35,515 bases of DNA. Origin: Nitrospiria bacterium. GTDB taxonomy: Bacteria; Nitrospirota; Nitrospiria; JACQBZ01. The translations under genes were made by a program, and so were the position numbers. Numbering within the stretch: position 1 is the stretch's first letter; each line of letters starts with the position of its first letter. The DNA lies in assembly GCA_035498035.1 (NCBI GenBank), contig DATKAN010000018.1, positions 1 through 35,515 of the forward strand, in the 5' to 3' direction. This document shows positions 6,077-13,766 of this stretch, one piece after another. Below the pieces are notes generated by a model. That model was not told where the DNA came from and ran no database searches. It was given only the letters and a program-made list of their open reading frames with translations.

Positions 6077-6105
6077 TTGACTTCCCGTCGTTATCCGAAT
6101 ACAAT
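6077..6105 (+). promoter_or_regulatory. Strong sigma-70 promoter, probably the original tRNA-Asn promoter
   Basis: TTGACT (6077-6082), a 17-base spacer and TACAAT (6100-6105) give a near-consensus promoter. The -10 lies inside the 15-bp palindrome CGAATAcaaTATTCG (6096-6110). A predicted start near 6112 is about 40 bases before the broken tRNA-Asn copy at 6154, as expected for a tRNA promoter. As arranged now it would transcribe the tRNA fragment, the GIY-YIG gene and the intact tRNA. Confidence 0.65.
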
Positions 6106-6150: not shown

Positions 6151-6194
6151 TATTCCCCGGTAGCTCTTCGCCATAGGCGGATGGCGGAGCGAGC
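6151..6194 (+). pseudogene. Broken 5' part of a tRNA-Asn gene
   Basis: Sixteen bases (6151-6166, TATTCCCCGGTAGCTC) match 6446-6461 of the intact tRNA-Asn exactly, including three bases before the mature 5' end. After an enlarged D-loop, GGCGGAGCGAGC (6183-6194) matches 6466-6477 exactly. The D-loop has 16 bases where the intact gene has AATT, a net insertion of 12, and includes the small inverted repeat CGCCAT/ATGGCG. The copy stops in the 5' strand of the anticodon stem and has no 3' half. Confidence 0.85.
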
Positions 6195-6197
6195 ATC

Positions 6198-6431
6198 TTG
6201 AAATTGTACTGGGTCTATATCAGTCGCAGTCGTTCATGCGGGCGGACTTATTTTGGTCAAACTGAGGATTTAGAGCGGCGGTTGTCGAAGCATAATGATC
6301 CACAGAACAAGCTTTCGCGGTATACCAAACGATTTAAAGGCCCGTGGGACGTCGTTTACACCGAACAATATCAAACGAGAAGCGAGGCCATAAAAAGAGA
6401 ACGATTGCTAAAGACAGGTAAGGGCAGATAG
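6198..6431 (+). CDS. Small GIY-YIG family nuclease between tRNA-Asn copies
   Basis: A 77-residue single-domain GIY-YIG protein of the short UvrC-like class. The GIY/YIG pair reads WVY (5-7) and YFG near residue 19. It is followed by the conserved helix EDLERRLSKHN, and by Glu residues in VVYTEQYQTRSEAIKRE where the metal-binding Glu is expected. It ends LLKTGKGR, the usual end of the core domain. The start is TTG. A GGAG located eight bases upstream (6186-6189) is part of the broken tRNA D-arm, so the tRNA piece seems to supply the ribosome site. The gene lies precisely between the tRNA 5' fragment and the intact tRNA. Nicking or cutting of tRNA-gene DNA is inferred, not shown. Confidence 0.8.
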   Translation: MKLYWVYISRSRSCGRTYFGQTEDLERRLSKHNDPQNKLSRYTKRFKGPWDVVYTEQYQTRSEAIKRERLLKTGKGR

Positions 6432-6448
6432 TTTCTGAAGACTATTAT

Positions 6449-6524
6449 TCCCCGGTAGCTCAATTGGCGGAGCGAGCGGCTGTTAACCGCTAGGTCGCAG
6501 GTTCGATCCCTGCCCGGGGAGCCA
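6449..6524 (+). tRNA. tRNA-Asn (anticodon GTT)
   Basis: Full cloverleaf of 76 bases with encoded CCA. The acceptor stem is TCCCCGG (6449-6455) with CCGGGGA (6514-6520), discriminator G and CCA (6522-6524). The anticodon stem AGCGG/CCGCT encloses loop CTGTTAA, giving anticodon GTT. The T-arm is present (GGTTCGATCC). It lies 17 bases after the GIY-YIG stop. No good promoter is seen between them, so it may depend on processing of a longer transcript starting near 6112. Confidence 0.97.
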
Positions 6525-6525
6525 G

Positions 6526-6560
6526 AAATAAAAAGGGCCGGTCCACGGCCCTTTTTATTT
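6526..6560 (+). terminator. Rho-independent terminator after tRNA-Asn
   Basis: A perfect 15-bp inverted repeat (6526-6540 with 6546-6560) has a five-base loop GTCCA. The GC core GGGCCG/CGGCCC is flanked by A-rich and T-rich arms, so it can end transcription from the left and possibly from the right. It starts two bases after the tRNA CCA. Confidence 0.85.
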
Positions 6561-6597
6561 CTCCCCATTTACCATTTACGATTTACGGATTTCTCCT

Positions 6598-6680
6598 CCG
6601 GCCCTTTTTATTCGGTGAATCGTAGATAGTAGATCGTCAATCAGGCTGCTGGAGATTGACGCCGGAACATCATCCGATGA
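6598..6680 (+). repeat. Dispersed repeat, copy A (downstream of tRNA-Asn)
   Basis: Begins with a second GGCCCTTTTTATT, then GTGAATCGTAGATAG and a core CTGGAGATTGACGCCGGA continuing ACATCATCCGATGA (core 6649-6680). The same order of elements recurs in the same orientation at 12127-12193 and 13661-13766. No coding function is apparent. The remainder up to 6773 shows nothing recognisable. Confidence 0.8.
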
Positions 6681-6773
6681 GTGTACAAAATGTTCTCGGA
6701 CCCGGTTCTCCCTCCGAAGGCGAGTCGAGCAAGGCTTGTGGTTGGAAAATGCCACCGGCTTGCCAGTGGGTAT

Positions 6774-13660: not shown

Positions 13661-13766
13661 ATCCCGATTGGGGAGCCTGAAAAAAAAGGACCGTCCCACG
13701 GCCCTTTTTATTTAGTGAACCGGAAATAGGGGTTCTGGAAATTGACGCCGGAACATCATTCGATGA
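13661..13766 (+). repeat. Dispersed repeat, copy C, with decayed tRNA-like tail
   Basis: Reading right: ATCCC...GGGGAGCC (13661-13677), a terminator hairpin, GGCCCTTTTTATTT (13700-13713), GTGAAC and the core CTGGAAATTGACGCCGGAAC continuing ATCATTCGATGA (13735-13766). This is the same order as tRNA-Asn 3' end, terminator and copy A at 6506-6680. The tRNA part is degraded beyond function. Confidence 0.7.
13683..13709 (+). terminator. Terminator hairpin inside repeat copy C
   Basis: AAAAAGG(A)CCGT, loop CCC, ACGG(C)CCTTTTT with one mismatch. It closely resembles the terminator following tRNA-Asn, and would separate the barrel-gene region from the downstream diguanylate cyclase. Confidence 0.7.

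Follow-up and report, generated by a model that had tools for sequence, protein, structure and literature searches.

A short GIY-YIG nuclease gene in a split and rebuilt tRNA-Asn gene: a probable minimal, intron-less mobile element of bacterial tRNA genes

The window analyzed here, a 35,515-nucleotide stretch of a Nitrospiria bacterium genome (contig DATKAN010000018.1), carries on its forward strand a promoter-like site, the 5′ part of a tRNA-Asn, a GIY-YIG nuclease gene and a complete tRNA-Asn, an order that had been proposed in a first-pass annotation and that proves correct to the base. The promoter-like site (TTGACT-17 bp-TACAAT, 6077–6105) was located by a consensus scan. It is followed by a relic of the tRNA gene (6151–6196), namely a 5′ half with an interrupted D loop that ends approximately at the anticodon stem and is recognized by two direct repeats shared with the intact tRNA (D1 and D3) as well as by comparison with an isotype-swapped null (p 0.006). 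The first repeat, TATTCCCCGGTAGCTC, is exact at 6151–6166 and 6446–6461 and starts three bases before the mature tRNA, as the annotation had stated; the second, TGGCGGAGCGAGC, lies at 6182–6194 and 6465–6477. The spacing of the second (283) had been taken as the size of a mobile unit of about 283 bp; that figure stands for TGGCGGAGCGAGC only, the spacing of TATTCCCCGGTAGCTC being 295, and the source of the gap had gone undescribed: the left copy has a net insertion of 12 bp in its D loop. In the fold of the relic, this insertion pairs with the tRNA's own TGGCGGA to form a hairpin scar (TTCGCCAT / AGGCGG / ATGGCGGA, 6167–6189).

The nuclease ORF (6198–6431, 77 amino acids) begins with a TTG codon close to the position of the would-be anticodon stem. 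A GGAG at 6186–6189, 8 nt upstream of this codon and derived from the D arm of the relic, is a possible ribosome-binding site, an inference from reading the sequence. Beyond the ORF, a short spacer (6432–6448), the final three bases of which copy the native pre-tRNA leader, leads to the one intact tRNA-Asn(GTT) of the window (6449–6524/6521, ARAGORN and Rfam). tRNA-Asn occurs once among the 42 tRNA hits of the genome, 30 of the 42 loci having been typed, and this gene is apparently its sole copy. Directly 3′ of the tRNA lies a perfect 17-bp inverted repeat (I1, 6524–6562) with a T-rich last arm, for which a role as terminator is likely, although inferred. Pieces of the region just 3′ of the tRNA (6515–6690) recur at 13670–13766 and in the same-genome contigs C65, C15 and C58 and constitute a short dispersed repeat.

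Hexamers identical to those of the window promoter precede an uninterrupted tRNA-Asn in one genome of the same genus (G001) and three genomes of the same family (G004, G005 and G006). The empty site that had been predicted for close relatives is thus present in four of them, each with a single intact tRNA-Asn and without the 295-bp insert; over the stretch compared, the tRNA of the window is identical to those of G001 and G004. Because the promoter stands directly before the uninterrupted tRNA in these relatives, the left junction in the window can be identified as the original start of the tRNA, to which 295 bp have been added.

The product of the ORF matches the Pfam GIY-YIG family (55.5 bits, E 7e-15). 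In 16 relatives, Y18, G20, R28, H32 and E68 are invariant and Y7 is nearly so; the catalytic Tyr, Arg and Glu positions are conserved. The folds nearest to the AlphaFold model of the 77-residue protein (pLDDT 84) are Slx1 and then the UPF0213, I-TevI and UvrC GIY-YIG domains, none with an E-value below 0.001, and sequence-profile comparison places UPF0213 closest (E 4e-16; solved structures BH0048 and EF2693), followed by Slx1 and I-TevI (E 1e-3 for I-TevI). The PHROGs matches of the family mostly carry the name homing endonuclease or endonuclease, and the defense-system models of PADLOC yielded no match. A separate DNA-binding domain is absent, the protein stopping at residue 77 and consisting entirely of the GIY-YIG core. 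Wherever synonymous change is unsaturated, the ORFs of relatives show dN/dS of 0.06–0.24, indicative of purifying selection. In one of two verrucomicrobial tRNA-Lys elements (L092 and L095), namely L092, no ATG, GTG or TTG stands just ahead of the GIY-YIG domain, and the open frame extends back into the upstream tRNA.

The refutation named in advance, short GIY-YIG homologues without a statistical tie to tRNA genes, did not materialize. A profile built from only two proteins, that of the window and that of a relative from the same class (G008), was compared with 84,980 species genomes, and 26 loci were selected by protein alone; a same-strand tRNA lies within 200 bp in 17 of these. A second profile, of 16 relatives, was run over 20 genomes of the first sample and 396 genomes of the phylum and yielded 39 further loci, 32 of them with a tRNA on the same strand at a distance of at most 400 bp and not one with a tRNA solely on the opposite strand. 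The first sample is the cleaner of the two, because linked loci made up most of the 16-relative profile. The chance expectation of such linkage is about 0.7% (by arithmetic from 42 tRNAs in 2.67 Mb), and loci of other short GIY-YIG subfamilies showed no tRNA within about 2–3 kb (25 loci). The tRNA-linked loci are not all independent, given that vertical descent is common to some groups; G008, in which a tRNA-Ala displays the same construction, represents an independent case. Altogether, 13 isotypes have been invaded (Asn, Ala, Gly, Arg, Pro, Gln, Trp, Ser, Leu, Lys, Met, Cys and Asp), and, apart from the phylum of the window, the host records list, among others, Bacteroidota, Ignavibacteriota, Verrucomicrobiota and Omnitrophota, together with several Patescibacteria candidate phyla. 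On the protein tree, which rests on 83 columns and leaves many forks unresolved, tRNA linkage requires 6 changes versus 21 after shuffling, with none of 500 shuffles as low; short GIY-YIG relatives of the KxWSRxKKxALI type in this tree lie mostly away from tRNA genes.

The elements come in two layouts that are mirror images of each other: type D, the layout of the window, consists of a broken 5′ half, the nuclease and the intact tRNA, and type U of the intact tRNA, the nuclease and a broken 3′ half. With tRNAs of other isotypes as the null, a matching 5′ part was identified upstream in all 20 type D loci (18 at p<0.01; the count includes one near-duplicate pair, L152 and L155) and a matching 3′ part downstream in 18 of the 32 type U loci (p<0.05), the remaining 14 having no clear 3′ relic. 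In the protein tree, the type D element L132 is nested in a tRNA-Ala group that is mostly of type U. Together with the empty sites, this recurrent linkage to a tRNA, a broken half of which lies beyond the nuclease gene, supports insertion into the tRNA gene with the tRNA kept whole, as the annotation had envisaged.

The position profile of the relics differs between the layouts, with type D relics retaining positions 1 to about 29 and type U relics about 18–76 with a dip at the anticodon. Scars are located in the D loop (type D) or the anticodon arm (type U), sometimes elsewhere as well, and usually take the form of a near-perfect hairpin of varied sequence. Several tRNA-Asn relics (L120, L142, L144 and the two of G393) have differing hairpins that all directly adjoin TTAACC at the anticodon. 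The L131 relic is clean, without a new hairpin, and scarring may therefore come after insertion. CCTGCCTGCCGGCAGGCAGG is a dispersed palindrome in G280, G008 and G286 (54, 19 and 11 copies; control 0), and it also occurs, identical or slightly altered, as the scar of tRNA relics. G271 has only three near-copies of CCTGCCTGCCGGCAGGCAGG, one of them about 11 bp upstream of a GIY-YIG fragment (G271:C239:3827). For the window genome, the possibility that the hairpin is a dispersed repeat, as it is in some other hosts, was ruled out: a search for 22 bases with up to 3 mismatches detected no second copy; in G285 the hairpin is element-specific. The idea that the hairpin shields the tRNA from misfolding also found no support in equilibrium folding, where the acceptor strand of the relic competes with the intact one whether the scar is present or absent, with the proviso that kinetics and processing are outside such a model.

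Mobility of the element is well supported by its presence and absence at orthologous sites. At an orthologous tRNA-Asn site in another family, 8 genomes are empty, 4 carry a type U element (G520, G395, G393 and G414), 1 carries a type D element (G434) and 3 retain remnants (G524, G523 and G388); G482 is empty although it belongs to the same genus as the occupied G520. In G285, two sister elements reside in two different tRNA-Ser genes, the relic of each corresponding to its own local tRNA, and a similar D-loop hairpin is present in both relics and confined to the tRNA-Ser relics of that genome. A tandem array at tRNA-Lys in G275 (L075 2369–2917, L076 1–420) comprises the tRNA, a GIY-YIG ORF, a scarred 3′ half, a second GIY-YIG copy containing a stop codon and a further 3′ half, which suggests repeated insertion or unequal recombination. 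A scarred tRNA-Asn relic in G523 (L173, 1880–2300) is followed by a second promoter-like site (TTGACA...TATAAA) and an intact tRNA without a nuclease ORF, an arrangement that is possibly an end stage of the element.

Other groups may reflect persistence. In Nitrospira-like genomes (L041/L127, L128, L134, L141, L143 and L056), the GIY-YIG gene is situated 100–330 bp behind tRNA-Ser, and in several of them palindromes, for instance TGGCGAGATCTCGCCA and TGGCGGATCCGCCA, separate the two; this group and the tRNA-Pro group of Opitutae look vertically inherited. The tRNA-Leu element found in both G441 and G451 was set aside as a case of cross-family transfer, the whole available 1.8-kb flank being 99.7% identical; judging from these sequences, L152 and L155 are probably a shared or mis-binned contig. 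As for vectors, none is known: viral contigs contained no relative, and the layout was not identified in any phage or plasmid. Matches at about 35–43% identity comprise 12 phage and 2 plasmid records, their surroundings falling outside the comparison.

We consider it probable that these loci represent a minimal selfish element without an intron, about 295 bp long and specialized on tRNA genes, with a stand-alone GIY-YIG nuclease as its only gene; homing, that is, cleavage plus copying, is inferred. Under this hypothesis, the nuclease would cut tRNA genes between the D arm or D loop and the anticodon arm, and repair of the break would copy the element into the cut gene. One half of the tRNA would be duplicated during the event such that the essential tRNA stays whole, and the outer half would be left as a relic, with the cut region scarred, often by a hairpin that may block re-cutting or recombinational loss. 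The tRNA promoter would probably drive the ORF, for which the relic would provide the ribosome-binding site. The earlier proposal that the element carries a ready-made replacement tRNA half now appears doubtful. In 24 of 31 testable loci, the relic is closer to the local tRNA than to same-isotype tRNAs of other genomes, and each relic of G285 matches its own tRNA-Ser; because the relics fit the local tRNA best, local duplication at insertion, or later homogenization, is favored and may be said, on these comparisons, to fit at least as well as a carried half.

The main puzzle for the homing hypothesis, which remains unexplained, is how the intact tRNA of an occupied allele escapes self-cleavage. 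In such an allele, the relic region is scarred, the intact tRNA is retained and the sequence context upstream of this tRNA is altered. A target spanning the tRNA and its native flank would confer immunity, given the scar in the relic and the new flank beside the intact copy; this is a guess. Furthermore, the restriction of the protein to a catalytic domain, without a DNA-binding domain of the I-TevI type, speaks against the homing reading, as do the 14 type U loci without a clear 3′ relic, the lack of a known vector and the groups that look vertically inherited.

Several alternatives have to be weighed against such an element. The hairpins raise the possibility of a structure-specific nuclease acting on palindromes, whereby the relic hairpins would be element ends or substrates, in a logic resembling that of REP/RAYT, and tRNA genes would be struck because they can extrude hairpins. 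Most relics have near-perfect hairpins that differ in sequence but not in position, one hairpin shared by several relics is dispersed in some hosts at the copy numbers given above, and the branched-DNA nuclease Slx1 is the nearest fold, all of which favors this scenario; however, the window hairpin is unique in its genome, the G285 hairpin is restricted to tRNA-Ser relics, and the clean L131 relic allows the hairpin to post-date insertion. We regard this scenario as unlikely. An arrangement in which the nuclease drives nothing, with a tRNA duplicated in tandem, an ORF lying between the copies by chance and one copy decayed, would agree with the close fit of relics to the local tRNA and with the G523 locus, where relic, second promoter and tRNA occur in the absence of the ORF. 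Yet the intervening gene is always a GIY-YIG from one part of the tree and always on the same strand, the ORF is conserved, and the arrangement recurs in many isotypes and phyla, which leaves such a passive origin only a slender chance.

The vertical inheritance that has long kept the gene behind tRNA-Ser in Nitrospira-like genomes, and the purifying selection on the ORF, could also be accommodated if the gene served the host, as a domesticated or defense-like nuclease that uses tRNA promoters and terminators for its expression. We find this improbable to a slightly greater degree still, because the gene is patchy at orthologous sites, with remnants, because defense models are unmatched, and because the tRNA is broken and rebuilt and not merely trailed by a gene. 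tRNA genes are common attachment sites of integrative elements, and conceivably the nuclease gene could be left over from a larger tyrosine-integrase element that had attached at the tRNA. The 295-bp insert contains neither an integrase nor other cargo, however, and type D duplicates the 5′ part of the tRNA, whereas integrases usually rebuild its 3′ end; we give this derivation hardly any credence.

Returning to the minimal selfish element, a bolder extension can be offered only tentatively, and we think it somewhat unlikely to hold: that it exemplifies a new class of mobile elements, in which a one-domain GIY-YIG nuclease attacks tRNA genes generally, via their hairpin-forming D and anticodon arms and not via one sequence, while duplication of the local half leaves every isotype open to invasion with its function intact, and a hairpin seals the old half. 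Mobile DNA commonly targets tRNA genes, which are essential and conserved, but the invaders known from bacteria are either introns or large integrase elements. A self-contained invader of less than 300 bp that keeps the tRNA whole in many isotypes and phyla would, if real, be among the simplest selfish elements known, and would account for many of the short "GIY-YIG nuclease family" genes that adjoin tRNAs. It would also offer a system for studying target choice by a one-domain nuclease and the survival of an essential gene under repeated invasion.

Comparison with known systems sets the element apart from those with which it shares individual features. UPF0213 proteins provide the closest solved structures by sequence and have the same small single-domain size. 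With I-TevI and other GIY-YIG endonucleases of group I introns, the element has in common the GIY-YIG core and the invasion of conserved genes, but it lacks an intron and a DNA-binding domain, and the host gene is kept whole by duplication and not by splicing; a group I intron was ruled out, given that Rfam finds only the tRNA and that a complete tRNA is present. Tyrosine-integrase elements likewise enter tRNA genes and leave a functional tRNA and a fragment, whereas here the element is under 300 bp, forms duplicating the 5′ and the 3′ half both exist, and a tyrosine recombinase is absent, the 295-bp insert having space for the GIY-YIG ORF alone. Short hairpins combined with a small nuclease gene recall REP palindromes and RAYTs; in contrast to the Y1 transposase of the latter, the nuclease here is a GIY-YIG enzyme, and the hairpins are not always dispersed, that of the window being single-copy in its genome. 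In the literature within our coverage, which excludes most subscription papers, we found no paper that ties GIY-YIG nucleases to chromosomal tRNA halves or REP palindromes, and the elements apparently form a widespread, undescribed family of minimal mobile elements in tRNA genes.

The nearest known system is SegB of phage T4, a free-standing GIY-YIG homing endonuclease located among tRNA genes (PMC2988022). Phage genomes show an enrichment of SegB genes near tRNAs of many isotypes (PMC13096335), and cutting inside tRNA-containing sequence has been suggested for SegB of T4/T6 phages (PMC2988022, PMC13096335). The likeness lies in a free-standing GIY-YIG gene co-localized with tRNA genes of many isotypes. 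SegB differs in being phage-borne and situated between the genes of tRNA clusters, and the accessible parts of these papers do not describe a scarred half-tRNA facing an intact tRNA of the same isotype; the window element resides in a bacterial chromosome, consists of a 77-residue catalytic domain only, splits and rebuilds its tRNA gene and is accompanied by hairpin scars. The features of free-standing homing endonucleases of the SegB/Seg kind that are present comprise a conserved active site, a location outside any intron or intein, and occupied and empty alleles at one site. By this resemblance, and with the defining cleavage and copying inferred, the element may be placed among the free-standing homing elements.
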